From the NCBI RefSeq assembly GCF_018122735.1, contig NZ_JAGRRD010000001.1, positions 4,647,486 to 4,711,485 of the forward strand: DNA of 64,000 bases. The letters are read 5' to 3'. The notes beneath the pieces were generated by a model, which was not told where the DNA came from, did no database searches, and saw only the letters and a list, made by a program, of their open reading frames with translations. The DNA comes from Azoarcus sp. L1K30. GTDB taxonomy: Bacteria; Pseudomonadota; Gammaproteobacteria; Burkholderiales; Rhodocyclaceae. This document shows, in pieces, positions 7,419 to 56,932 of the stretch (the stretch's first letter is position 1; each line of letters starts with the position of its first letter). The translations under genes were made by a program, and so were the position numbers.

Positions 7419-7673
7419 ATGGAAAACAACAGTGCAGCCTATTGGAAGGCGACGCTGGGGCTGTTGACCAAGATCCTGATCATCTGGTTCTTGGTCTCGT
7501 TCGGCGCCGGCATTCTCTTCGCGCCGATGCTCAACAGCATTCATCTGGGTGGTTACCCGCTTGGATTCTGGTTTGCGCAGCAGGGTTCGATTTATGTGTT
7601 CGTCGTGCTGATCTTCTACTACGCGAAGAAGATGGGTGAGCTCGACGAGCGTTTTGACGTTCACGAAGACTGA
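7419..7673 (+). CDS. DUF4212 small subunit of a sodium/solute symporter
   Basis: This is an 84-residue membrane protein with two predicted helices (about residues 16-38 and 50-70) around the family signature GGYPLGFWFAQQGSIYVFV. DUF4212 proteins are encoded directly upstream of VC_2705-type SSS symporters and are regarded as small subunits or chaperones of monocarboxylate (acetate/propionate/lactate-like) uptake. The ATG at 7419 follows a strong GGAGGAG site (7407-7413). The symporter begins 11 bases after its stop. A second, orphan DUF4212 gene lies at 10114-10377. Confidence 0.9.
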   Translation: MENNSAAYWKATLGLLTKILIIWFLVSFGAGILFAPMLNSIHLGGYPLGFWFAQQGSIYVFVVLIFYYAKKMGELDERFDVHED

Positions 7674-7684
7674 GAGGCGAGCAC

Positions 7685-9490
7685 ATGGATCTTCAGACAA
7701 TTACCTATGTGGTGGTCGGCGCGAGTTTTGCGCTGTACATCGGTATCGCCATCTGGGCGCGTGCCGGTAGCACCAGCGAGTTCTATGTCGCGGGCGGCGG
7801 GGTTCACCCGATCGCAAACGGCATGGCGACGGGCGCCGACTGGATGTCGGCAGCCTCCTTCATCTCCATGGCGGGTCTTATCTCCAACATGGGCTATGGT
7901 GGCGGCCTGTTCCTGATGGGCTGGACCGGTGGCTACGTGCTGCTGGCGATGCTGCTGGCACCGTACCTGCGCAAGTTCGGCAAATTCACCGTACCGCAGT
8001 TCATCGGCGACCGCTTCTATTCGAAGTCGGCCAGCACGGTGGCGGTAATCTGCCTGCTGACCGCTTCCATCACCTACGTCATCGGCCAGATGACCGGTGT
8101 GGGCGTGGCCTTCTCGCGCTTCCTCGGCGTCACCAACGATACCGGTATCTACATTGGTATGGGCATCGTGTTCATGTACGCCGTGTTCGGCGGCATGAAG
8201 GGCATCACCTACACCCAGGTGGCCCAGTACGTCGTGCTGATCCTGGCCTACACGGTTCCGGCGCTGTTCATCTCGCTGCAGCTGACCGGCCATGTCCTGC
8301 CCCAGCTTGGTCTGGGTGGCACGCTGGTCGGTACGGATGTGTCGCTGCTGACGCGTCTCGACCAGGTGGTGACGGATCTGGGCTTCGGCAAGTACACCAC
8401 CTCTGTTCCGGGCAGCACCCTGAACATGTTCGTGTACACCGTGTCGCTGATGATCGGTACGGCAGGTCTGCCGCACGTCATCGTGCGCTTCTTCACCGTG
8501 CCGAAGGTCAAGGACGCGCGTTCGTCTGCCGGTTGGGCGCTGGTCTTCATTGCCCTGCTGTACACGACGGCACCGGGTGTTGCGGCCATGGCCAAATACA
8601 ACCTGATCTCGACGGTGAACTCTGCCGTTGCAACCGACGGTGACCTGTACGCAGCCGATGCCAGCCTGGAAGCCGACAAGCGTCCGGCCTGGATGAAGCG
8701 CTGGGAGCAAACCGGTCTGCTGAAGTTCGAGGACAAGAACGGTGACGGTCGCATCCAGTACTACAACGACAAGACCACCAATGCAGAAGCCAAGGCCAAG
8801 GCCGAAGCGGCTGGCTGGAAGGGCAACGAGCTGACGGTCAATCCCGACATCATCGTGCTCGCCAACCCGGAAATCGCACTGCTTCCCAACTGGGTGATCG
8901 CGCTGATTGCCGCAGGTGGTCTGGCCGCTGCGCTGTCCACGGCTGCGGGTCTGCTGATGGCGATCTCCTCGGCGGTGTCGCATGACCTGGTGAAGAACGT
9001 GATTGCGCCGGATATCTCGGACAAGAACGAGCTGCTGGTCGGCAAGGTCGCCATGGCTTTCGCGATCGTGCTCGCAGGCTATCTTGGTCTGAACCCCCCG
9101 GGCTTCGCTGCCGGTACCGTGGCCCTGGCCTTCGGTATTGCTGCCAGTTCGCTGTTCCCCGCCATCATGATGGGCATCTTCTCCAAGAAGATGAACAAGG
9201 AAGGCGCCATTGCCGGCATGCTGTCGGGTCTGTTCATCACCCTGCTGTACGTGTTTGCGCACAAGGGTCTGTTCTTCATCAAGGGCACCGAGTTCACCGG
9301 TCTGATCGGCGGTCCGAACTCCTTCTTCGGCATCACGCCGGAAGCCTTCGGCGCCATCGGCGCACTGGTGAACTTCGCGGTTGCCTTCCTGGTCGATAAA
9401 GTGACCAAGGAGCCGCCCGAGCACATTCAGGCACTGGTCGAAAGCGTTCGTATCCCGCGTGGTTCGAAGGCGGTCGACGGCGCGCACTAA
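7685..9490 (+). CDS. Sodium/solute symporter, VC_2705/ActP-like subfamily
   Basis: This 601-residue SSS-family permease has about 13 membrane helices. Family stretches are visible: FYVAGGGVHPIANGMATGADWMSAASFISMAG near the N terminus and AAGGLAAALSTAAGLLMAISSAVSHD around residues 415-440. The family imports short monocarboxylates such as acetate with sodium; the substrate here is not determined. A soluble insertion at about residues 320-400 contains an EF-hand-like loop, DKNGDGRIQYYN (residues 350-361), followed by an Ala/Lys-rich helix. It forms a two-gene operon with the upstream DUF4212 subunit, and a strong terminator follows. Confidence 0.9.
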   Translation: MDLQTITYVVVGASFALYIGIAIWARAGSTSEFYVAGGGVHPIANGMATGADWMSAASFISMAGLISNMGYGGGLFLMGWTGGYVLLAMLLAPYLRKFGKFTVPQFIGDRFYSKSASTVAVICLLTASITYVIGQMTGVGVAFSRFLGVTNDTGIYIGMGIVFMYAVFGGMKGITYTQVAQYVVLILAYTVPALFISLQLTGHVLPQLGLGGTLVGTDVSLLTRLDQVVTDLGFGKYTTSVPGSTLNMFVYTVSLMIGTAGLPHVIVRFFTVPKVKDARSSAGWALVFIALLYTTAPGVAAMAKYNLISTVNSAVATDGDLYAADASLEADKRPAWMKRWEQTGLLKFEDKNGDGRIQYYNDKTTNAEAKAKAEAAGWKGNELTVNPDIIVLANPEIALLPNWVIALIAAGGLAAALSTAAGLLMAISSAVSHDLVKNVIAPDISDKNELLVGKVAMAFAIVLAGYLGLNPPGFAAGTVALAFGIAASSLFPAIMMGIFSKKMNKEGAIAGMLSGLFITLLYVFAHKGLFFIKGTEFTGLIGGPNSFFGITPEAFGAIGALVNFAVAFLVDKVTKEPPEHIQALVESVRIPRGSKAVDGAH

Positions 9491-40657: not shown

Positions 40658-42313
40658 TCACGATGTCGCCGCGCGCGCCAGCGCGATCAGTCCCGCGGTG
40701 GAGGCGTCATGATCGCCGGGGGCTGCGCCAGCCAGCTCGCCGGCAATGCGGGTGGCGATCTGCTTGCCGAGTTCGACCCCCCATTGATCGAAGCTGTTGA
40801 CGTCCCAGATGACGCCCTGCACGAACACCTTGTGCTCGTAGAGCGCGATCAGGGCGCCGAGCGTGCGCGGTGCCAGTTCAGGCATGAGCAGGGTGTTGCT
40901 GGGCCGGTTGCCCGGAAAGACCCGGTGCGGTACGAGCGCTTCGGCTGCCTCGGCGTTCATGCCGCTTGCCGCCAGTTCCGCTCGTACCTCGTCGGCGGTC
41001 TTGCCGATCATCAGCGCCTTGCTCTGGGCGATACAGTTGGCCAGCAGCAGGCGATGATGACCGGGCAGGTTGTGGCTGGCCTTGAGTGGTGCGATGAAGT
41101 CGACCGGGATGAGATCGGTGCCCTGATGCAGGAGCTGGAAAAAGGCGTGCTGCCCGTTGGTGCCGGGTTCGCCCCATACGACCGGACAGGTGGGCGATGC
41201 CGCCGGCTGCCCGTCGCGGGTCACCGACTTGCCGTTGCTTTCCATCTCCAGTTGCTGCAGATAGGCGGGCATGCGCGACAGCGCCTGGGCATAAGGGGCG
41301 ATGCACAGGCTGCCGGCGTCGAAAAAGTTGCGATACCAGACCCCGAGCAGGGCCAGAATGACCGGCATGTTCACTTCGAGCGGGGCTTCGGAAAAGTGCC
41401 GGTCCATCTCGTGCGCGCCGTCGAGCATGGCCTCGAAACCGTCGCGCCCGACACACAGCGCAATCGGCAGTCCGACTGCCGACCACATTGAATAGCGACC
41501 GCCCACCCAGTCCCAGAAGCCGAACATGTTGTCGGGGGCGATACCGAATTCGGCCACCCGCGCCGCGTTCGTCGAGACCGCGACGAAATGGCGGGCAATG
41601 TCCTTTTCGCCGGCGCCGCTGGCAAGAAACCAGTCGCGCGCGCTGGCCGCGTTGGTCATGGTCTCGATGGTGGTGAAGGTCTTCGAGGCGATGATGAACA
41701 GCGTTCGGGCCGGATTGACGCTTGCCAGCACCCGTGCCAGCTGGTCGCCGTCGACGTTGGACACGAAGTGCAGCTTCAGGCGCGGGTGCCCGTGCGCCGC
41801 CAGCGCTTCGCAGGCCATGGCTGGACCGAGGTCCGAGCCGCCGATGCCGATATTCACCACGTCGGTGACGACCTCGCCGCTGTAACCCGTCCATCGGCTC
41901 TCGCGCACGGCCTCGGCAAACGCGCCGACGCGTTGGCGCACGGCCAGCACCGCCGGCATGACGTTCTCGCCGTCGACCTCGATGCAGCTGCCAGCTGGAT
42001 TGCGCAGCGCGGTGTGCAGCACCGCGCGGTCTTCGGTGCTGTTGATGCGGGCGCCGGCAAACATGGCGTTGCGGGCGTGTTCGAGCTGACGTTCGCGGGC
42101 GAGTGCGACAAGCAGTTCAAGGGTGTGCTTTGTGATCCGGTTCTTCGAGTAGTCCAGGGTCAGGCCGGCCGCGTGCAGGCAGAAGCGCTCGAAGCGTTGC
42201 GGATCGCGCGCAAACAGAGTGCGCAGGTCGGTCGCGGCGATATCCGCGCGGTGGGCGGACAGCGCCTGCCATGCGGGCGAAACGGCAGGGGTGGGGGCTT
42301 GAGTCTGAGTCAT
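40658..42313 (-). CDS. pgi: Glucose-6-phosphate isomerase
   Basis: Pgi interconverts fructose-6-phosphate and glucose-6-phosphate. Here it would feed fructose-derived phosphate into Zwf and the Entner-Doudoroff route. The product is 551 residues. Signatures include [52 protein letters not shown] and the C-terminal Pgi box region. The ATG at 42313 lies one base after the hexR stop triplet, so the two are translationally coupled. Confidence 0.96.
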
Positions 42314-42314
42314 G

Positions 42315-43238
42315 TCATTCACCAAATCCGCGGATGCGCTTGTCGCGCAGGGTTTGCTTGGTCCGTTCAAGGCGTTTGAGCAGCTCGGGGCCGCCGGCGA
42401 GGGCCACACCGACCGACAGGGCGTCGATGATGGTCAGATGCACGATGCGCGAACTCATCGGTGCGTAGATGTCGGGATCCTCCTGAACATCGGCGCCCAG
42501 CGTCAGGCTTGCGATTCGTGACAGGGCCGAGCCGCTGGCTGTGATCGCGATCACGTGCGCACCCGCCTCGCGCGCGAGCTCGCAGGCGCGCAGCAGGTCT
42601 TCGGTACGCCCGCTGGCCGACAGCGCGACCACGACGTCGTCTGGCTGCAGCAGTGTCGCAGCCATGCCTTGCGTGTGCGGGTCGCTGTAGGCCACCGACG
42701 GAACGCCGAAGCGGAAGAATTTGTGCTGTGCATCCTGTGCAACGATACCGGAGTTGCCAATGCCATAAAACTCCAATCTGCGTGCGCGGCTCAACAATTC
42801 GACCGCCTCGGCAAAGCGGGCGCCGTCGAGCTGGTTGCGTACGCTCATCAATGCCGTGATGCTGCGGTCGAACACCTTGGGGGCGACTTCGCTCAGCGGG
42901 TCGTCGGCGGAAACGTCGCGGTGCACGAATTGCACCCCGGTCGCCAGGCTTTGTGCGAGCCGCAGCTTGAAGTCCTTGAAGCCGCTGAAGCCCAGCGCGT
43001 TGACGAAGCGCGCGACCGTCGGTTGGCTGACGCCCACGCGGAAGGCCAGTTCGGCAATGGAGATGTTGAGCACTTCGTTGGGCTGGGCGAGGACGAAATC
43101 TGCGACCGCGCGCTCGGAGCGGCGCAACAGATCGAAACTGGCCTCGATGCGTGCAAGCAGCGGGGTGTTTTCGGCTGCGGGAGTGAGGATGGCTTCTTTG
43201 CGCTCGTGCGCGAGGTTGGTCAGTTTGTTCATGTCCAT
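42315..43238 (-). CDS. hexR: HexR, RpiR-family repressor of glucose/ED genes
   Basis: This 307-residue regulator has an N-terminal RpiR-type helix-turn-helix (about residues 25-100, [36 protein letters not shown]) and a C-terminal SIS phosphosugar-binding domain ([34 protein letters not shown]). HexR proteins repress zwf, edd, eda and related genes until KDPG binds the SIS domain. It sits inside zwf-pgl-hexR-pgi, and a HexR-like palindrome overlaps the edd promoter (45739-45768). The start may be GTG 43244, ATG 43238 or ATG 43232; the middle one follows AGTGG. Confidence 0.92.
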
Positions 43239-43298
43239 GCCCACTGTTCAAAAAGTCGACGCGAAAGGTGCCCGTGATCGCCGGCGAACCCTGCCGCC

Positions 43299-44035
43299 CT
43301 AATCGCAAGCCGCATGAAGCACCTCGACCGGCGTGTCGTGCTGCAGCAGTATGCCAGCCACCGGCATGCGCATCGCGTCGCCTTCGGCGCAGGCCTGCTC
43401 GATCACCGCGCGTTTGTTCCGGCCCGCAATCGGCAGCAGGATCAAACGCGAGTCGAGCAGGGCCGGCAGGCTCAGGCTGATCCGCGCATGCGGGGCCAGC
43501 GCAGGATGCACGGCGCCCACGCGGGGCGCGCTGGCATCGAGCAGTCCGGGCAGGGCGGCGCTGCCGGGAAACAGGGAGGCGGTGTGGCCATCCTCGCCCA
43601 TGCCCAGCACCACGACATCCAGTGTCTGCGGCAGTGCCGTCAGTCGCCGCAGACAGGGCGCCAGCGCAGCTTCCGCCGTCGGCTCGCCATCATACAGTGT
43701 GATGAAGCGGGCATGCGCCGCCTCGCCCTGCAGCAGGGTGCGCTGCAACATGCCGGCATTGCTGTCGGCGTGCGTTGCCGGCACGCAACGTTCGTCTGCC
43801 AGGCTTATGATCACATGCGACCAGTCGAGTGGCTGTTGCGACAGGGTGTGCAGGAAGACCTCTGGGCTGCGCCCGCCCGACACCACCAGGCTGGCCGTCC
43901 CGCGTGCGCGCAGGGCCGCATCGAGCGCGAGTGCGACACGGCGGGCGAGGGCGGCGGATGCCGTCTCTGCGTCTGCATAGCACTGCTGCCTGACGTGCGC
44001 AGGCAAGGCCAGCGGCGGGGAAGGCGGCAGCGTCA

Positions 44036-44036
<1 letters not shown>
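43299..44036 (-). CDS. pgl: 6-phosphogluconolactonase
   Basis: Pgl hydrolyses 6-phosphogluconolactone to 6-phosphogluconate. The 245-residue DevB-type protein shows SLVVSGGRSPEVFLHTLS, ISLADERCVPATHADSN and VVLGMGEDGHTASLFPGS. Its ATG shares one base with the zwf stop (TGATG), indicating translational coupling. It is the second step of the G6P-to-6PG branch in this operon. Confidence 0.95.
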
Positions 44037-45499
<1,463 letters not shown>

Positions 45500-45555
45500 G
45501 GGTCGCCTCTTTGGTCGGAAAGTTCGGCCATCTTCTGTCGTGTGGCTTCGAGGTA

Positions 45556-45570
45556 TGTGCAAAAGCTACA
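45556..45570 (-). promoter_or_regulatory. Weak HexR-like half palindrome upstream of zwf
   Basis: TGTGCAAAAGCTACA matches the edd-side palindrome at 11 of 15 positions; the right arm CTACA is intact. It lies about 57 bases before the zwf start. It may be a second, weaker HexR site. Confidence 0.3.
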
Positions 45571-45768: not shown

Positions 45769-45856
45769 TGTTCATGTTCCGCTTCCCGGCGCTTCTGTGC
45801 GCAGCACAGCGCGAGTGATTCCGCGGGGGCAACCAGATTTTCCGACAGGAGGCCAG

Positions 45857-47695
<1,839 letters not shown>

Positions 47696-47722
47696 ATACA
47701 GGAATCTTCAAGGAGAATGCAC

Positions 47723-48367
47723 GTGGAAATCCGTTCCGTACTGGCTGCGAGCCCGGTGATGCCGGTGATCGTTATCGACGACCTTGCGCATGCCGTACCG
47801 CTGGCACGCGCCCTGGTGGCAGGCGGCATCCGGGTGCTAGAGGTGACGTTGCGCACCGCGGCCGCGCTCGACAGCATCCGCGCGATCGCCGCCGAAGTGC
47901 CCGATGCGCTGGTGGGCGCCGGCACGGTCCTCAGCGCCGCCGACCTCGACGCCGCCGCGACTGCCGGTGCGCGGTTCGCGGTTAGCCCCGGCGCCTCGAC
48001 CGCGCTGCTCGAGGCCGCGCACGCCGCGTCGATTCCCTTGCTGCCGGGGGTGATGTCACCTTCGGACGTGATCGCCGGGCTCGATGCCGGGATGGATACG
48101 TTCAAGCTCTTTCCCGCGGCCCAGGCTGGCGGACTCGGCATGCTCAAGGCGCTCGGCGGGCCCTTCCCGCAGGTGCTGTTCTGTCCGACCGGGGGCATCG
48201 ATGCCTCCACCGCACCGGCCTTTCTCGCATTGCCCAACGTCGCCTGCGTGGGGGGGTCGTGGCTGTGCCCGGGCGAGCTCGTCCGGAGCGGCGACTGGGC
48301 GGCCATTACCGCGCTGGCTTGCGGCGCCGCCGCGCTGCGTCCGACGGCGGTGAAGGCGCAGGCATGA
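47723..48367 (+). CDS. eda: KDPG aldolase
   Basis: Eda cleaves 2-keto-3-deoxy-6-phosphogluconate to pyruvate and glyceraldehyde-3-phosphate. The 214-residue class I aldolase has the Schiff-base lysine K128 in DTFKLFPA, plus VGAGTVLS and LPGVMSPSDV. The GTG at 47723 is 7 bases after AAGGAG; the ATG at 47717 is too close to that site. Its stop overlaps the galM start (ATGA). Confidence 0.96.
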   Translation: MEIRSVLAASPVMPVIVIDDLAHAVPLARALVAGGIRVLEVTLRTAAALDSIRAIAAEVPDALVGAGTVLSAADLDAAATAGARFAVSPGASTALLEAAHAASIPLLPGVMSPSDVIAGLDAGMDTFKLFPAAQAGGLGMLKALGGPFPQVLFCPTGGIDASTAPAFLALPNVACVGGSWLCPGELVRSGDWAAITALACGAAALRPTAVKAQA

Positions 48368-49425
48368 TGCATGCACCGGTCAGCGCGCCGGCGGTCACGG
48401 GGTTTCGTGTCCGTCGCGAGTCGTTTCGCGGTATCGACGCCCTGCGTTTCAGCAATGACGCGATGCAAGCGGTATTTGCCTTGCGTGGCGCCACGCTGCT
48501 CGACTGGCGCGTACGTACGGACGACGGCGAACTGGGGCTCACGGATGGCTATCGCTCAGCTGCCGAGCTCGACGCCCAGAACGGCGTCAGGAACGGCATC
48601 CTGGCACCGTTCCAGAATCGCATTGCCCACGCGCGCTACTGCTTTGACGGCGTCATGCACGATCTCCTGCCGGCGTGCGGTGTGGGCGCGCGCGAGATCT
48701 ACCATGGCTTCGCGCGCATGCTCGATTTCGAACCGCTGCTGATGACGGACGGGCGTGACGGCGCCGCTGCCGTGCTTGCCTGCGAGGGGATTCGTCCCGG
48801 GGTGTTCCCCGGCTACCCGTTTGCGATCTCGTTGCGGATCCGGCTCGCGCTGTCGGCCGCGGGGATCGCGTTGCACATCAGCGCGACCAATGTCGGTGAA
48901 CGCGATGCGCCGGTGACGCTGGGTTGGCACCCGTACTTCCGCCTGGGCGAGGGCGGGATCGATGCGCTCGAGCTCAAGCTGCCGGCGACCGAGCGGATTC
49001 TTACCGACGCACGCTTGATTCCCTTGCCTGGCGATGCGGCGCGCGCTTCGCTCGGCACTCGCCCGGAAGCGGACTTCCGTGCCTTCCGCGTTCTGGGTGG
49101 CACAGTGCTCGATTGCTGCCATGGTGGCAACGTAGCCGGCGCGGACGGCCTGATTCGCAGCGTGCTGCGCGACCCGCGCAGCGGCCATCGTCTCTCGGTG
49201 TGGCAGGAAAGCGGACTGGTGCACGTATTCACCGGCGACACCCTGGCGCGTGACGCCCGGCGCGCGATCGCCATCGAGCCGGTGGATGCGCCGACCGACG
49301 CCTTCAATCGCGAGGCGTGCGCGGCGGACATCCGGCTACCGCCGATGGCCAGTCGGACCTTCTCCTGCGGCGTCGATTTCCTGGCGTCCTCTCACCGTAC
49401 GCAAAACGCCGGGACATGCTCATGA
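48364..49425 (+). CDS. Aldose 1-epimerase family protein
   Basis: This 353-residue mutarotase-fold protein (GalM or hexose-6-phosphate mutarotase type) has NRIAHARYCFDG near the substrate site, the conserved LGWHPYFRL histidine and a late acidic residue in AIEPVDAPTDAFN. It would speed anomer conversion of glucose or its phosphate for Glk or Zwf. ATGA overlaps with eda upstream and pyk downstream show tight coupling. Confidence 0.87.
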   Translation: MMHAPVSAPAVTGFRVRRESFRGIDALRFSNDAMQAVFALRGATLLDWRVRTDDGELGLTDGYRSAAELDAQNGVRNGILAPFQNRIAHARYCFDGVMHDLLPACGVGAREIYHGFARMLDFEPLLMTDGRDGAAAVLACEGIRPGVFPGYPFAISLRIRLALSAAGIALHISATNVGERDAPVTLGWHPYFRLGEGGIDALELKLPATERILTDARLIPLPGDAARASLGTRPEADFRAFRVLGGTVLDCCHGGNVAGADGLIRSVLRDPRSGHRLSVWQESGLVHVFTGDTLARDARRAIAIEPVDAPTDAFNREACAADIRLPPMASRTFSCGVDFLASSHRTQNAGTCS

Positions 49426-50840
49426 GCGCAATCAAGTTCACCAAGATTCTGGCCACGCTCGGCCCCGCCAGCGGCAATGAAGACACCATCCGCGCGCTGG
49501 TGGACGCGGGCGCGGACGTGTTCAGGCTCAACTTCAGCCATGGCACGCATGATCAGCACCGCGCAGTGCATGGAATGATCCGCCGGGTCGAGGCAGCACT
49601 GGGCCGCCCGATCGGCATCCTGATGGACCTGCAGGGACCGAAGTTGCGCCTGGGCACCTTTGCCGAGGGCAAGGTCACGCTTGCCGCCGGCGCGCGCATC
49701 CGTTTCGACCTCGACCGCACGCCGGGCGATGCGCACCGGGTGTGCATTCCGCATCCCGAGATCATCGGCGCCGTCGCCGCCGGGCATGAACTGCTGATCG
49801 ATGACGGCAAGATGCGCCTGACCGTGGTGGCGCGGGGCGAAGGCTGGGTGGAGGCACAGGCGCAGACCGCCGGCGTGCTGTCGGACCGCAAGGGGGTGAA
49901 TGTACCCTCGGTGACGCTGCCGCTGTCGGCGATGACGGCCAAGGATCACGCCGACCTCGCGTTCGGGCTCGATCTTGGCGTGGATTGGGTGGCACTGTCC
50001 TTCGTGCAGCGGCCCGAGGACCTGTTCGAAGCGCGTGCGCTGATCGGCGAGCGTGCGTGGCTGATGGCCAAGATCGAGAAGCCCGCCGCGCTCGGCTGCC
50101 TCGATGCCATCATTGCCGAGGCCGACGGCATCATGGTGGCGCGTGGCGATCTGGGCGTCGAGCTGCCGGCCGAAGAAGTGCCGGTGCAGCAGAAACGTAT
50201 CGTTGCCGCCTGTCGCGAAGCGGGCAAACCGGTGGTGATTGCCACCCAGATGCTCGAATCGATGATTTCCGCGCCCACGCCCACGCGGGCCGAAGCGTCG
50301 GACGTGGCCACCGCCGTGTTCGACGGTGTGGACGCGGTGATGCTGTCGGCGGAATCGGCCTCGGGCGCCTATCCGGTCGAGGCGGTGTCGATGATGGCGC
50401 GCATCATCGGCCGCACCGAGGCCGATCCGCTGCAGCGCAAGCTCATGGAAGCGATCAGCTCGCGCGTGGTGGCTACCAGCACCGATGCCATCGGCACGGC
50501 CATCCGGGCGGTCGCCCTGGCTTTGCCCGTGTCGGCTACGGTGGCCTTTACCGCCTCCGGCTCGACCACGCTGCGCATCGCCAGCCAGCGCCCGCACTCG
50601 GCGGTGGTGAGCCTGAGCCCGCGTGCGGAAGTCGCCGGGCGCCTGGCGCTGGTGTGGGGCGTGCGTTCGCGCTGCTGCGATACCACCTGTGAAAGCGATG
50701 CCGAGATGGTGGCCGAAGCGACCGCCGCCTGTCGCGCCGAAGATCTGATCAAGCCCGGACATGCCGTCCTGCTCACCGCCGGCGTGCCATTCGGCACGCC
50801 AGGCAGTACCAACCTGATGCGCGTGGTATGGCCGGACTGA
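49422..50840 (+). CDS. pyk: Pyruvate kinase
   Basis: This 472-residue pyruvate kinase makes pyruvate and ATP from phosphoenolpyruvate. Signatures are KFTKILATLGPAS, RLNFSHGTHDQH, the active-site IMVARGDLGVEL and ATQMLESMISAPTPTRAE. The ATG at 49422 overlaps the galM stop (ATGA); a second in-frame ATG is at 49416. It closes the lower half of the Entner-Doudoroff route in this operon. Confidence 0.96.
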   Translation: MSAIKFTKILATLGPASGNEDTIRALVDAGADVFRLNFSHGTHDQHRAVHGMIRRVEAALGRPIGILMDLQGPKLRLGTFAEGKVTLAAGARIRFDLDRTPGDAHRVCIPHPEIIGAVAAGHELLIDDGKMRLTVVARGEGWVEAQAQTAGVLSDRKGVNVPSVTLPLSAMTAKDHADLAFGLDLGVDWVALSFVQRPEDLFEARALIGERAWLMAKIEKPAALGCLDAIIAEADGIMVARGDLGVELPAEEVPVQQKRIVAACREAGKPVVIATQMLESMISAPTPTRAEASDVATAVFDGVDAVMLSAESASGAYPVEAVSMMARIIGRTEADPLQRKLMEAISSRVVATSTDAIGTAIRAVALALPVSATVAFTASGSTTLRIASQRPHSAVVSLSPRAEVAGRLALVWGVRSRCCDTTCESDAEMVAEATAACRAEDLIKPGHAVLLTAGVPFGTPGSTNLMRVVWPD

Positions 50841-50889: not shown

Positions 50890-52524
50890 ATGAGTACCGA
50901 ACTGAAACAGCGCCTGCTTGAGTGCTTTCCCGATGCCGACGCAATTCCCGCCGACTGCCGGATCCTGTCGCCCATCCACCAGCGCGCGATCCTGCTCAAT
51001 GGCGAAATGCGGATGTGGAAGGGCGATACCCGTGCGGTGTATTCGCCGGTGCGCACACGCGCAGCCGACGGCACGCTGACCGCGGTGGAGCTGGGCAGCT
51101 TCCCCGTCACCGGTACCGAAGAAGCGGATGCCGCCATCGATGCCGCGTGCAAGGCCTACGACAACGGACGCGGCAAGTGGCCGACGATGTCGGTGGCCGA
51201 GCGCATCGCCTGCGTGGAGAACTTCACCAACCAGCTACTGGCCCGGCGCAGCGAGATCGTGAACCTGATCATGTGGGAGATTGGCAAGAGCCTGGCCGAC
51301 TCGCAGAAGGAGTTCGACCGCACCATCGACTACATCAAGGCCACCATCGTCGAACTCAAGGCGCTCGACAATGCCAACTCGCGCTTTCAGATCGTCGACG
51401 GCACCATCGCCCAGATCCGCCGCTCGCCGCTGGGCATCGTGCTGTGCATGGGGCCGTACAACTACCCGATGAACGAGACCTTCTGCACCTTGATCCCCGC
51501 GCTGATCATGGGCAATGTGGTGCTGTTCAAGCCGCCGCGCTTCGGCGTGCTGCTCTACTACCCGATGCTCGAAGCCTTCCGCAGCGCGTTTCCGGCCGGG
51601 GCAATCAACATCGTCTACGGCCAGGGCAACCAGGTGGTGCCGCACATCATGGCCTCGGGCAAGGTCAATACGCTGGCGCTGATCGGCACCAGCAAGGTGG
51701 CCGATCAGCTGAAGAAGGCCCATCCGAAGACCAACCGCCTGCGCGCGGTGCTCGGGCTCGAGGCCAAGAATGCGGCCATCGTGCTGGCCGACGCCGATAT
51801 CGAGCTCACGGTAAAGGAGTGTATCGCCGGCAGCCTGTCCTTCAATGGCCAGCGTTGCACCGCGATCAAGATGATCCTGGTGCACCAGGCCATTGCCGAG
51901 CAGTTCCTGCGCCGCTTCAGCGAGGAGATCGCCAGGCTCAGGATGGGCATGCCGTGGGAGCAGGGGGTGATGATCACACCGCTGCCGGAGATGTCCAAGG
52001 TGGCCTACATGCAGGAATGCATCGACGACGCCGTAGCCCGGGGCGCGCGCGTGCTCAATCCCGGTGGCGGCACGGCGGTGGAGACCCTGTTCTACCCGGC
52101 GGTGGTTTTCCCGGTCAAGGAGGGCATGAAGCTGTACCGGGAGGAGCAGTTCGGGCCGGTGATTCCGGTGGCACCGTTCGAGGACATCGAGACGGCACTC
52201 GAGTACGTGATCAGCTCCGACCATGGTCAGCAGGTGTCGATCTTCGGCACCAATCCGGACCAGATCGCCAATCTGGTCGATCCCCTGGTCAATCAGGTGT
52301 GCAGGGTGAACCTGAACTGCCAGTGCCAGCGCAGCCCGGACGTGTTTCCGTTCGCGGGGCGCAAGGATTCAGCCGAGGGTACGCTGTCGGTGCACGACGC
52401 ACTGCGTGCCTTCTCCATCCGCACCATGGTCGCGGCCAAGCAGACCGAGGCGAGCAAGAAGCTGCTCGACGCAATGGTGCTGGGCAACAAGTCGAACTTC
52501 GTCAACACGCATTTCATCCTCTGA
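50890..52524 (+). CDS. gapN: Non-phosphorylating NADP glyceraldehyde-3-phosphate dehydrogenase
   Basis: GapN oxidises glyceraldehyde-3-phosphate directly to 3-phosphoglycerate with NADP, skipping the ATP-forming GAPDH/PGK pair. The 544-residue aldehyde-dehydrogenase-fold enzyme has catalytic C323 (FNGQRCTAIKM), E291 (GLEAKN) and the PYNYPMNETF cofactor region. It has a longer N terminus than streptococcal GapN. The ATG follows GGAGGAGAC. It is the last intact gene of the edd operon, so one triose product of Eda would yield NADPH instead of ATP. Confidence 0.9.
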   Translation: MSTELKQRLLECFPDADAIPADCRILSPIHQRAILLNGEMRMWKGDTRAVYSPVRTRAADGTLTAVELGSFPVTGTEEADAAIDAACKAYDNGRGKWPTMSVAERIACVENFTNQLLARRSEIVNLIMWEIGKSLADSQKEFDRTIDYIKATIVELKALDNANSRFQIVDGTIAQIRRSPLGIVLCMGPYNYPMNETFCTLIPALIMGNVVLFKPPRFGVLLYYPMLEAFRSAFPAGAINIVYGQGNQVVPHIMASGKVNTLALIGTSKVADQLKKAHPKTNRLRAVLGLEAKNAAIVLADADIELTVKECIAGSLSFNGQRCTAIKMILVHQAIAEQFLRRFSEEIARLRMGMPWEQGVMITPLPEMSKVAYMQECIDDAVARGARVLNPGGGTAVETLFYPAVVFPVKEGMKLYREEQFGPVIPVAPFEDIETALEYVISSDHGQQVSIFGTNPDQIANLVDPLVNQVCRVNLNCQCQRSPDVFPFAGRKDSAEGTLSVHDALRAFSIRTMVAAKQTEASKKLLDAMVLGNKSNFVNTHFIL

Positions 52525-52551
52525 CCCGTTTCATCCCTTGGGCTCCCTCCG

Positions 52552-52600
52552 GGGCCGGCGGCGCCCTCTCCCTCCTCTCCCGCTGCCGGCCCTCTTTTTT
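52552..52600 (+). terminator. Possible terminator after gapN
   Basis: GGGCCGGC (52552-52559) pairs with GCCGGCCC (52585-52592) across a 25-base loop, followed by TCTTTTTT. The loop is long, so strength is uncertain. It would end the edd operon before the eno fragment. Confidence 0.5.
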
Positions 52601-52611
52601 GGACGAACGAC

Positions 52612-52776
52612 ATGGACAAGATCAACAGCCTGACCGGGCTTGAAATTCTCGATTCGGGCGGCAATCCCACCCTGCAGGCCACGGTCACGCTGGCACAACC
52701 AAGCTCCCTCCCCTTCGAGGGGAGGGTTTGGGTGGGGATGGGTTTCAAGTGTCAGGAAATGCCATCCCCCTCTTAA
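52612..52776 (+). pseudogene. eno: Truncated enolase (N-terminal fragment)
   Basis: A 54-codon frame starts MDKINSLTGLEILDS and continues GGNPTLQATVTLA. Its first 28 residues match the N terminus of enolase (family form xEILDSRGNPT..V.L), with the invariant Arg of SRGNP changed to Gly. From about base 52696 the reading runs into a palindromic repeat and stops at 52774-52776, so over 90 percent of the gene is missing. The fragment lies where an enolase would complete the pathway between GapN and Pyk/Ppc. A functional eno must exist elsewhere. The fragment is probably the scar of a lost second copy. Confidence 0.75.
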
Positions 52777-52868
52777 TAAGTAGTCTCGGCGTAGCCTCGC
52801 CGTTACGCCGGGAGCGAGCGGTGCTCGCTGAAACCCCGGCGCCTCCCCCTTGAAGGGGGAGGAGCCCA
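52699..52868. repeat. REPIN-like palindromic element between eno fragment and ppc
   Basis: Two similar C-rich hairpins in head-to-head arrangement bound the element: CCCTCCCCT-TCG-AGGGGAGGG (52706-52726) and CCTCCCCC-TTGAA-GGGGGAGG (52842-52862). Between them lie GGGGATGG/CCATCCCC (52734-52769) and a long stem CGCCGGGAGCGAGC with its complement (52806-52841). The layout is like paired REP sequences (REPIN) or a short MITE. It starts almost exactly where enolase homology ends. The remainder up to the ppc start (52869-52993) shows nothing else. Confidence 0.65.
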
Positions 52869-52993
52869 TGCGAACCCGAACAGCAGGTTCGGGTGGCTCA
52901 ACGATTCATCGCTCAGCGGCGCTGGATTCACTTTGCCCACGGCAAGGCCTGATTCCGGGCTTCTTTGTCTGTCGCTTATCAGAGGACGCGCTC

Positions 52994-55783
52994 ATGGATG
53001 CTCAAGTACAAACCCTGCCGGATGCCCCGGTCACCGCCAATGAGGACAAGGACGAACCGCTGCGTGAAGACATCCGCCAGCTTGGCCGGATTCTGGGCGA
53101 CACCGTGCGCACTCAGGAGGGCGAAGCTGTGTTCGAGCGTATCGAGCACATCCGCCAGCTGTCGATCCGCTTTCGCCGTGACGACGATCTCGGCGCGAGG
53201 CGCGAACTCGAAGCCGTGCTGGATTCACTCTCGCGCGAACAGACTCTGCACGTGGTACGCGCGTTCAGCTACTTCTCCCATCTTGCCAATCTTGCCGAAG
53301 ACCAGCATCACATCCGGCGTTCGCGGGCGCATTTGATTGCCGGCTCGGCGCCGCGCGAAGGCAGTCTCGCCCATGCCATCGGACGGGCCTTCGATGCCGG
53401 TCTCGAAGCCCGTGCGATTGCCGACTTTTTCGCGTCCGCACAGGTGACACCGGTGTTGACGGCGCACCCGACCGAGGTCTCGCGCAAGAGCGTACTCAAC
53501 TGCCAGATGGCGATTTCGCGTCTGCTCGATGCCCGCGACCGCATGCGGCTCACGCCCGACGAGGCACGGCAGAACGAGGATGCGCTGCGTCGCGGGGTCT
53601 TGACCTTGTGGCAGACCCGCATGCTGCGTCCGAACAAACTGTCGGTGATCGACGAGGTCGCCAACGGGCTGACCTATTTCGACTACACCTTCCTGAGCGA
53701 GGTGCCGCAGGTCTATGCGGCACTCGAGGACCAGCTTGGCGCAAGCCATCCCGCGCTCGCCGGGCTCGAGCTGCCGACCTTTCTCCAGGTCGGCAGCTGG
53801 ATCGGCGGCGACCGCGATGGCAATCCCTTCGTCACTGCGGAGGTGCTCGATCAGGCGCTGAGAATGCAGTGCGAGCGTGTGCTGACCCATTACCTCGATG
53901 AAGTGCGCATGCTGGGCTCGCAGCTTTCACTGGCCTCGCTGCTGGTGTCGCCGTCGGACGCGCTACTGGCGCTTGCCGAGCAGTCACCCGACACGTCACC
54001 CCATCGCCGCGACGAGCCGTATCGTCGCGCGCTGGCCAGAGTGGGTGCCAGGCTTGGCGCCACCTGCTCGCGCCTGACCGGACAGCCGTGCGCGCCTCAG
54101 CCCCAAGGCGCCGCCCCCGCGTATAACGATGTCGCCGAATTCGCCGCCGATCTGGATATCGTCCATCGCTCGCTGCAGGCGAACGGTTCGGCGCCGCTCG
54201 CGGGCGGACGGCTCAGGCATCTGCGGCGTGCGGTCGGCGTGTTCGGCTTCCACCTGGCGCCGATCGACCTGCGCCAGAACGCCGATGTTCACGAGCGGGT
54301 CGTCGCCGAATTGCTGGCGGTCGCGCGCCCGGACATTGACTACCTGGCGCTGGACGAGGAGGCGCGGATTGCGCTGCTGCTCGAAGAGATCGCGTCACCG
54401 CGGCCCCTGTATTCGCCGTTCGCGCAATACTCGGCGCTCAGCAGCGGTGAGCTGGCGATTTTCCGCATGGCGCGCGAAGCGCATCAGCGTTACGGCGCAG
54501 CCGCGGTGCCGAACTGCATCATCTCCAAGACCGACGGCGTCTCGGACATGCTCGAACTGGCCTTGCTGCTCAAGGAGTGCGGGCTGCTCGACCCGCGCGC
54601 AGGCACCCTCGCGGTGAATGTGATTCCCTTGTTCGAGACCATCGGCGACCTGCAGGCGAGTGGTCCGGTAATGGACCGCCTGCTGGCCCTGCCTGCGTAT
54701 CGCAGGCTTCTTGCGTCGCGCGGTATGAGTCAGGAAGTCATGCTGGGCTATTCCGACTCCAACAAGGATGGCGGTTTTCTGACCTCCGGCTGGGCGTTGT
54801 ACAAGGCCGAGATTGCGCTGGTCGACGTGTTTGCCCGTCATGGCGTACGTCTGCGCCTGTTTCATGGTCGTGGCGGCTCGGTCGGCCGCGGCGGTGGTCC
54901 GAGCTACCAGGCCATTCTTGCCCAGCCCGGCGGCGCGGTGCAGGGACAGCTCCGGCTCACCGAGCAGGGTGAGGTCATCTCCGCCAAGTACGGCAACCCC
55001 GAGGTTGGCCGGCGCAACCTGGAGGTGCTTACCGCGGCCACGCTGGAGGCGAGTCTGTTCGCCGACGCCGAGCCGGCGCCCAGGCCGGAGTACCTGGCCG
55101 CAATGGATGCGCTCTCGGCAAGCGCATTCGAAGCCTATCGTGCATTGGTCTATGAAACCGAGGGCTTCGAGACCTACTTTCGTGAATCGACGGTGATCGA
55201 GGAGATCGCGCATCTGAATATCGGCAGCCGCCCGGCTGCGCGCAAGAAGACGACGAGCATCGAGGATCTGCGCGCCATTCCGTGGGTGTTCAGCTGGGCC
55301 CAGTGCCGCCTGATGCTGCCGGGCTGGTTCGGCTTCGGCAGCGCGGTGAGGGCCTACCTTGGCGCGCATGGGGAAGACGGCCTGCGGCGGCTGCAGGCGA
55401 TGAACCGGGAGTGGGGCTTCTTTTCCACGCTGTTGTCGAACATGGACATGGTGCTGGCAAAGAGCGACATCGCCATTGCCAGCCGCTATGCGGGTCTGGT
55501 GCGCGACGTGAAATTGCGCGAGAACATCTTTGCCCGCATCCGCGGCGAGCATGAAGCGACCATTACCGCACTGCTCGACATTACCGGGCAGGGGGCACTG
55601 CTCGATGGCAACCCCTTGCTCAAGCGCTCCATCCGCAATCGTTTCCCCTACCTCGATCCCCTCAACCACGTGCAGGTGGAGTTGCTCCACCGTCACCGCG
55701 AGGGCAGTGACGACGAGCGCATCAAGCGCGGGATTCATCTGTCGATCAACGGCATCGCCGCGGGGCTCAGGAATAGCGGCTGA
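52994..55783 (+). CDS. ppc: Phosphoenolpyruvate carboxylase
   Basis: Ppc makes oxaloacetate from phosphoenolpyruvate and bicarbonate, refilling the TCA cycle. The 929-residue protein has the catalytic motifs [47 protein letters not shown] and the C-terminal [15 protein letters not shown]. The ATG at 52994 follows AGAGGA by 7 bases; an in-frame extension to 52850 runs through the repeat and is rejected. It lies downstream of the edd operon and upstream of glk. Confidence 0.96.
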
Positions 55784-55957
55784 GTGAAGGGGGGCGGGTA
55801 GGGGCGCACCGACTGGTCGTGGCGTCGATGCCCCCCTGCTATCCCCCTTGGGTGGCACGAGGATTTGTGCAAGACTGCCTGGCATGCGCTGCAAGGGTTC
55901 CCGCAAGCGGGGCGGCGCGAAGCAATCTCCATTTTCCGTATTCGCGAGCCGATTGCC

Positions 55958-56932
55958 ATGCCTCTTGCACACGCCGGCAGCTTTCCCCGATTGGTAGGCG
56001 ACATCGGGGGCACCAATGCGCGTTTCGCGCTGCTGCATCGCCCTGGCGGCGTGCCCGAGCAGGTGGAGGCCTTCCGCTGCGCCGAGTTCGCCGGGCCGCA
56101 AGCGGTAATCGAACGTTATCTGGCGGGCCGCGGCGGTTGCAGACCGGTGTGGGCCGCCATCGGCATTGCGAACCCGGTCGATGGCGATCAGGTGCGCATG
56201 ACCAATCACGACTGGTCGTTTTCGATCGAGGGCTTGCGTCAGGGCCTCGGCCTCGAGCGCCTGCGGATCATCAATGATTTCACCGCGCTGGCGCTGTCGA
56301 TTCCTGCACTGGCAGCACACGAACTGCGCAAGGTCGGCGGGGGGGAAGCGCTGCCGGGGCGCGCGATCGGTGTCGTCGGGCCCGGTACCGGGCTCGGCGT
56401 GTCGGGTTTGCTGCCGTGCGGTGACGGCTGGGTGCCCATCGAGGGGGAGGGCGGGCACATCACGCTGGCGGCGAGTACCGCGCATGAGGCCGGTTTGATC
56501 GCCCAGCTTGCGCAGCGCTTTTCACATGTATCGGCCGAACGCCTGCTCTCCGGCCCCGGACTGGTCGCGCTGCTCGAGGCCAATGCAGCACTCAGGCGGG
56601 AAGCGGCGGAACGGCTCGGCCCGGACGAAATCACCCGTCGCGCGCTCAGTGGCGAATGCGAGCGCTGCATGGGCGCATTGAACGATTTCTGCGCCTTGCT
56701 GGGCACGGTGGCGGCCGACATTGCGCTGATTATCGGCGCGCGCGGCGGACTCTGCATCGGTGGCGGAATCGTGCCCAGACTCGGCACGTTCTTCGACGCG
56801 TCGCCATTTCGCGCCCGCTTCGAGAGCAAGGGGCGTTTCAGCGATTATCTGGCCGCGATACCGACCTTTGTCATCGAGGCGCCTTTTCCGGCGCTGCTGG
56901 GGGCCGCACGCAGTCTGGACACGGATGGCTGA
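55958..56932 (+). CDS. glk: Glucokinase
   Basis: Glk phosphorylates glucose with ATP, feeding G6P to Zwf. The 324-residue protein is of the proteobacterial Glk (non-ROK) type, with LVGDIGGTNARFALL, NDFTALALSIP, GVVGPGTGLGVSGL and GEGGHITLAAS. The ATG at 55958 gives the usual N terminus; the ribosome site is weak. The last 88 bases overlap the 3' end of the convergent RHH-domain gene. Confidence 0.95.
   Translation: MPLAHAGSFPRLVGDIGGTNARFALLHRPGGVPEQVEAFRCAEFAGPQAVIERYLAGRGGCRPVWAAIGIANPVDGDQVRMTNHDWSFSIEGLRQGLGLERLRIINDFTALALSIPALAAHELRKVGGGEALPGRAIGVVGPGTGLGVSGLLPCGDGWVPIEGEGGHITLAASTAHEAGLIAQLAQRFSHVSAERLLSGPGLVALLEANAALRREAAERLGPDEITRRALSGECERCMGALNDFCALLGTVAADIALIIGARGGLCIGGGIVPRLGTFFDASPFRARFESKGRFSDYLAAIPTFVIEAPFPALLGAARSLDTDG

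Follow-up and report, generated by a model that had tools for sequence, protein, structure and literature searches.

A truncated accessory enolase gene adjoining a dispersed palindromic repeat in a glucose cluster of Azoarcus sp. L1K30

A 28-codon enolase stub between gapN and ppc in Azoarcus sp. L1K30 is very probably the relic of an accessory enolase gene, eno2, that was deleted in place, and the position of the missing part is now taken by a dispersed palindromic repeat. The locus is a pseudogene relic, resulting from the ordinary decay of a redundant gene. It lies in a divergent glucose/Entner-Doudoroff cluster within the window (the whole stretch of 64,000 nucleotides that was analyzed), which comprises a minus-strand half and the plus-strand order edd-eda-galM-pyk-gapN-(stub)-ppc-glk. 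The features of the cluster are as follows, with their evidence in parentheses.

40658..45562, minus strand: pgi, an RpiR-type regulator, pgl, and zwf, the divergent half (Pfam; zwf above the NCBIfam cut-off)
45797..47695, plus strand: edd, phosphogluconate dehydratase, the first plus-strand gene of the cluster (NCBIfam TIGR01196, E = 3.5e-299, above cut-off)
47717..48367, plus strand: eda, KDPG aldolase (Pfam PF01081, E = 5e-75; NCBIfam TIGR01182, above cut-off)
48367..49425, plus strand: galM-like aldose epimerase, start codon of our choice (Pfam PF01263, E = 3.9e-24; NCBIfam match below cut-off)
49425..50840, plus strand: pyk, pyruvate kinase, start codon of our choice (NCBIfam TIGR01064, above cut-off)
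50890..52524, plus strand: gapN, aldehyde dehydrogenase, start codon of our choice (Pfam PF00171; PDB 3prl and 1euh)
52525..52611, plus strand: gapN-eno spacer with a GC-rich stem and a T run (spacer alignment to relatives)
52612..52695, plus strand: eno2 stub of codons 1-28, carrying SGGNP in place of SRGNP (Pfam and alignments to enolases)
52703..52865, plus strand: dispersed palindromic repeat, composite and REP-like, in place of eno2 codons 29 to end (genome copies; fold)
52899..52966, plus strand: possible eno-ppc spacer remnant (weak alignment to the spacers of relatives)
52994..55783, plus strand: ppc, phosphoenolpyruvate carboxylase, accessory copy, start of our choice, ATG at 52994 (NCBIfam NF000584, above cut-off)
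55865..56932, plus strand: glk, glucokinase (NCBIfam TIGR00749, above cut-off)

The best solved relatives of the gapN product are NADP-dependent (non-phosphorylating) glyceraldehyde-3-phosphate dehydrogenases (PDB 3prl, E = 5.6e-68; 1euh, E = 5.8e-66), and among the best 25 of its 39 NCBIfam matches none reaches the cut-off. An Rfam scan of 52400-53100 returned nothing at gathering scores.

The stub opens an ORF of 54 amino acids (52612-52776) that is located between the gapN stop (52524) and the ppc ATG (52994), and its first 28 codons had been read in the initial annotation as the beginning of an enolase. This reading holds. Residues 4-29 match positions 1-26 of the Pfam family Enolase_N (E = 0.0011; 19.5 bits, which does not reach the curated cut-off of 35 bits), while a search of the 54-amino-acid ORF against NCBIfam gave no match at 1e-10. 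From the start codon onward, the 28 codons can be aligned with those of accessory enolases, and 18 to 21 of 28 residues are identical across 13 rows. These rows are not all independent, as L044 and L048 are the same gene, and because they were picked by a pattern that required SRGNP, L046, L057, L058, and L123 are left out of these 13-row tests. Identity to the housekeeping enolase is 14/28 in five rows of this genus, the genome's own included. At the DNA level, alignment scores are 28 to 39 against the 13 accessory rows and 23 to 27 against the 5 housekeeping rows, with a shuffled maximum of 18 to 21. The reported change of the SRGNP arginine to Gly was also borne out: in 52 out of 52 distinct enolase alignments that cover it, the site is Arg (tblastn at E ≤ 1e-30 against the collected loci, without the motif as a condition). 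The locus bears the marks of a truncated enolase pseudogene, namely in-frame N-terminal homology from the start codon, absence of the C-terminal domain, and a gene in the same slot of some relatives, and the stub presumably has no function.

The eno2 homology stops at 52695 and the repeat starts at ~52703. The junction is therefore tight, as had been noted, but the stub does not stop exactly at the element, the two being separated by 7 bp. As codons 31-54 of the 54-amino-acid ORF are repeat sequence, the ORF consists of an enolase head and a repeat-encoded tail. It is highly improbable that this ORF is a translated leader or small protein coupling gapN to ppc expression; while its start codon and its open frame of 54 codons persist, the tail codons come from the repeat, the otherwise constant arginine has been lost, and 0 such fusions were found in the loci of relatives that were searched. 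Outside the window, the stub matches only full-length or contig-cut enolase genes in those loci, and the pattern that the initial annotation associated with a real small protein, an identical fragment joined to the repeat in every relative, was not seen.

The position of the fragment between gapN and ppc, where an enolase had been expected, agrees with the gene order of some relatives. We collected 79 gapN loci from a genome collection, 74 of them with at least 1.5 kb of downstream sequence. An eno gene is present within 600 bp downstream of gapN in 15 loci, from Aromatoleum, Azoarcus, Thauera, and unnamed MAGs, and is not found there in 64. The order gapN-eno-ppc occurs in 11/79 loci, and the whole order eda-galM-pyk-gapN-eno-ppc in 7; no ppc is located within 600 bp after eno in 4 of the 15 (L046, whose eno is cut by the contig end, L048, L050, and L100). 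In L057, L058, and L123 (~7643-8911), an enolase of a different type fills the gapN-eno-ppc slot, pointing to replacement or recruitment of the slot's gene on more than one occasion. A gapN tree was built from the window and 50 of the 79 loci. In it, eno follows gapN in each of the five rows at the shortest path distance from the window's gapN, which itself is without a well-supported sister group. The ancestral cluster would have carried, like these relatives, an accessory, pathway-linked eno2 after gapN, and the deletion would have removed codons 29 to end, or ~399 codons if reckoned from the 427-codon genes of most relatives. The composite repeat would now lie between the stub and the probable old eno2-ppc spacer.

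The genome retains one complete enolase gene elsewhere, which answers the question raised initially of whether another eno exists: Enolase_C (PF00113) matches at C1:1534654-1535508, 3.2 Mb away along the contig, and no second Enolase_C match was found in any of the 6 contigs of the genome. A second ppc is also present (G000:C1:2333369-2336119). The housekeeping enolase could supply the step from 2-phosphoglycerate to PEP, and because it covers this step, the loss of eno2 would have been tolerated and the stub left to drift. At 1e-150, gapN is absent from 59 of the 61 genomes sampled for kinship, only the present genome and a genus mate (G004) having it. Three of four genus mates carry a single enolase and lack a gapN match at 1e-150, while G004 has gapN and an intact eno2; since gapN and eno2 are absent from most genus mates, the accessory set is dispensable in the genus. 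Locus L048 is the same sequence as G004 from gapN through eno2. In G004, the next gene past eno2 is not ppc, and the accessory ppc is found ~11 kb from gapN, on the other side. G004 also has a third enolase gene (L161:7855-9138) in an apparent glycerate cluster, the other genes of which we take, by eye from their translations, to encode glyoxylate carboligase, hydroxypyruvate isomerase, tartronate semialdehyde reductase, glycerate kinase, and pyruvate kinase.

An assembly in which eno2, intact in the cell, was collapsed between two repeat copies would give a similar picture, and a collapsible layout does exist in Aromatoleum evansii (L047), where an intact eno2 is flanked by same-head repeats in direct orientation, one at 7662 between gapN and eno and one at 9178 between eno and ppc. 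We regard such an artefact as very unlikely for Azoarcus sp. L1K30: the window is part of a single 4.96-Mb contig, the completeness score of the genome is 100%, the 6 contigs lack a second Enolase_C match, the break falls inside the gene and not in the spacers, and the Arg-to-Gly change marks decay independently.

The gapN-stub spacer aligns above 300 shuffles to the corresponding spacers of 2 out of 9 relatives, the genus mate L048 and L055 (p = 0.14 to 0.88 for the other 7). It ranks first among 5114 window segments scored against these two, in a control for which L048 and L055 were chosen as the best scorers of the earlier nine-spacer test. Judging from these alignments, the spacer was probably retained from the ancestral arrangement. 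On the other side of the repeat, 52899-52966 forms a 69-column alignment with the eno-ppc spacer of L051 that begins at a common CAACGATT. The stretch after the repeat is collinear with the eno-ppc spacer of Aromatoleum but weakly similar to it (p < 0.05 for the spacers of 4 of 11 relatives), and 10 of 5114 window segments score equally or higher against five Aromatoleum eno-ppc spacers (L048 excluded), so that it is suggestive only that 52899-52966 may be a remnant of the old eno2-ppc spacer. No remnant of the enolase C-terminus was detected when the DNA of 52866-52993 was compared with the 13 accessory rows: whole-gene p values are 0.15 to 0.74, and those for the last 180 bases of eno2 are 0.03 to 0.93, the single row of the 13 below 0.05 being taken as chance. 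A likeness by eye of a downstream reading frame to the enolase C-terminus was dropped on the basis of this search. The weak 3′ spacer homology, the match of the upstream spacer to only 2 of 9 relatives, and a gapN-eno arrangement that is far from universal count against loss in place, which we nonetheless retain as the reading of the locus.

The repeat (52703-52865, ~163 bp) matches at least 86 pieces of its own genome at E ≤ 1e-3, itself counted; this number is a lower bound, since scoring covered 40 of the 71 candidates of a first look, and a single copy may contribute more than one piece. Most pieces are partial, while 10 of the 86 (itself included) span at least 138 of the 163 bases, and the best other copy is 85% identical. 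The repeat is a mosaic: G-rich sequence comes after the head CTCCCTCCCCTTCRAGGGGAGGG, and a middle module and an inverted end complete it. Its 23-bp head occurs once in the window with at most 3 mismatches (0 of 100 shuffles). As a single strand, 52700-52870 is predicted to fold at −99.4 kcal/mol (z = −6.87; 0 of 200 shuffles equally stable), with the outer ends paired with each other, so that the two inverted ends form one hairpin. The stretch 52860-52995 was rejected as a repeat in its own right: of its 19 matches at E ≤ 10, only the self match is below 0.001.

The element had been described as REPIN/MITE-like. Its inverted ends and hairpin fit a REPIN, but as a REPIN in the strict sense it is incomplete, as no match to the RAYT (Y1 transposase) family PF01797 was found in the genome at E ≤ 1e-3 (3 candidates scored), in a search whose control was positive in 5 of 14 genomes. 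In an alignment of 11 repeat copies with their flanks, no target site duplication of the kind that marks a MITE was obvious by eye. Extragenic placement was assessed for 10 copies against mechanical ORFs of at least 80 amino acids with GC3 > 0.6. Three copies (L007, L009, and L010) are touched by no such ORF, four (L003, L004, L005, and L012) are touched by ORFs of 95 to 127 amino acids, two (L011 and L008) by ORFs of 213 and 536 amino acids, and one (L006) has a 44-bp overlap with an ORF of 297 amino acids. The exact head CTCCCTCCCCTTCAAGGGGAGGG is present in 31 copies in this genome, the window's copy, which differs by one base, not being counted; 22 of the 31 fall within the initial 1.47 Mb of the contig, which is 4.96 Mb long. 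It occurs in 7 of 61 genomes, with 0 copies in the four genus mates, 41 in G030, which belongs to another genus of the family, and 1 to 7 in five more.

Genes broken beside other copies were sought among 10 flanking ORFs from 8 of 30 repeat loci of this genome (L002-L031): 3 belong to no Pfam family, in 6 no profile is clearly interrupted where the repeat lies, and 1 may be a second case. The latter ORF (L005:202-1440) ends ~60 bp before another repeat copy and combines a fatty acid desaturase domain (residues 33-234) with part of an ISL3-type transposase (residues 288-410, profile positions 79-196 of 240).

The initial annotation proposed an element-associated deletion of a second eno, a reading that is correct for the most part. 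A second eno was lost and a dispersed palindromic repeat stands in place of the lost part, but causation is argued from position only and is unproven. On balance we lean toward a part for the repeat in the deletion: it would have inserted into eno2 and then recombined with a copy in a spacer, or its hairpin would have driven replication slippage. In favor of such a role are the very stable hairpin of the window's repeat and the direct-orientation, same-head repeats around the intact eno of A. evansii; from the latter it follows that such repeats come to adjoin eno2 and that a relative offers a substrate for recombination. Recombination between two spacer copies cannot by itself account for the loss, because the 5′ break is inside the gene, while the repeats of relatives are in spacers. 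There is a lesser but real chance that the repeat had no connection with the loss: either eno2 would have been deleted first by an unrelated event and the repeat would have arrived later in the neutral stretch, or a repeat already present in the spacer would by chance have been the end point. Relatives with an intact eno (L047 and L052) do have such repeats in the spacer before or after it, but the eno2 homology ends no more than 7 bp from the repeat, and a later independent arrival would need a chance hit. A further-reaching reading, which we consider unlikely, is that a patchily distributed palindromic repeat family without a recognizable RAYT here repeatedly settles around the eno2 of glucose clusters in this family of bacteria, making the locus a recurrent hot spot for eno2 loss. 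Exact repeat heads are present around eno2 in A. evansii and A. toluolicum, and a variant was seen by eye in A. tolulyticum.

The locus is a clear example of the loss of a redundant gene of central metabolism, with the neighbors intact, the start of the gene in place, and the remainder replaced by a dispersed repeat. It is also a warning for annotation, as the 54-amino-acid ORF should not be called a protein and an enolase should not be assumed in the operon. No general view is altered by this finding, and none of the papers listed in a literature search, judged by title and abstract opening, concerns this locus.

Repeat-associated deletion can leave a pseudogene at the junction. The present locus likewise has gene homology ending at a dispersed repeat, while no second parent repeat was observed inside the gene. 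REPINs and their link to RAYTs have been described (PMC3116915). Like REPIN and BIME palindromes (PMC3116915; see also PMC2817692), the window's repeat has pairing inverted palindromic ends, a strong single-strand hairpin, many dispersed copies, and composite modules; it differs in that its genome has no Y1/RAYT match and most matching pieces are partial. The closest counterparts of the stub itself are the accessory eno2 loci of Aromatoleum, Azoarcus, and Thauera (L047, L048, L051, L052, L053, and L055), which share the slot after gapN and the same protein start and, in L048 and L055, also an upstream spacer like that of the window. These loci, of which L048 (the G004 locus) is without ppc next to it, contain the full gene, whereas the window has kept its first 28 codons.
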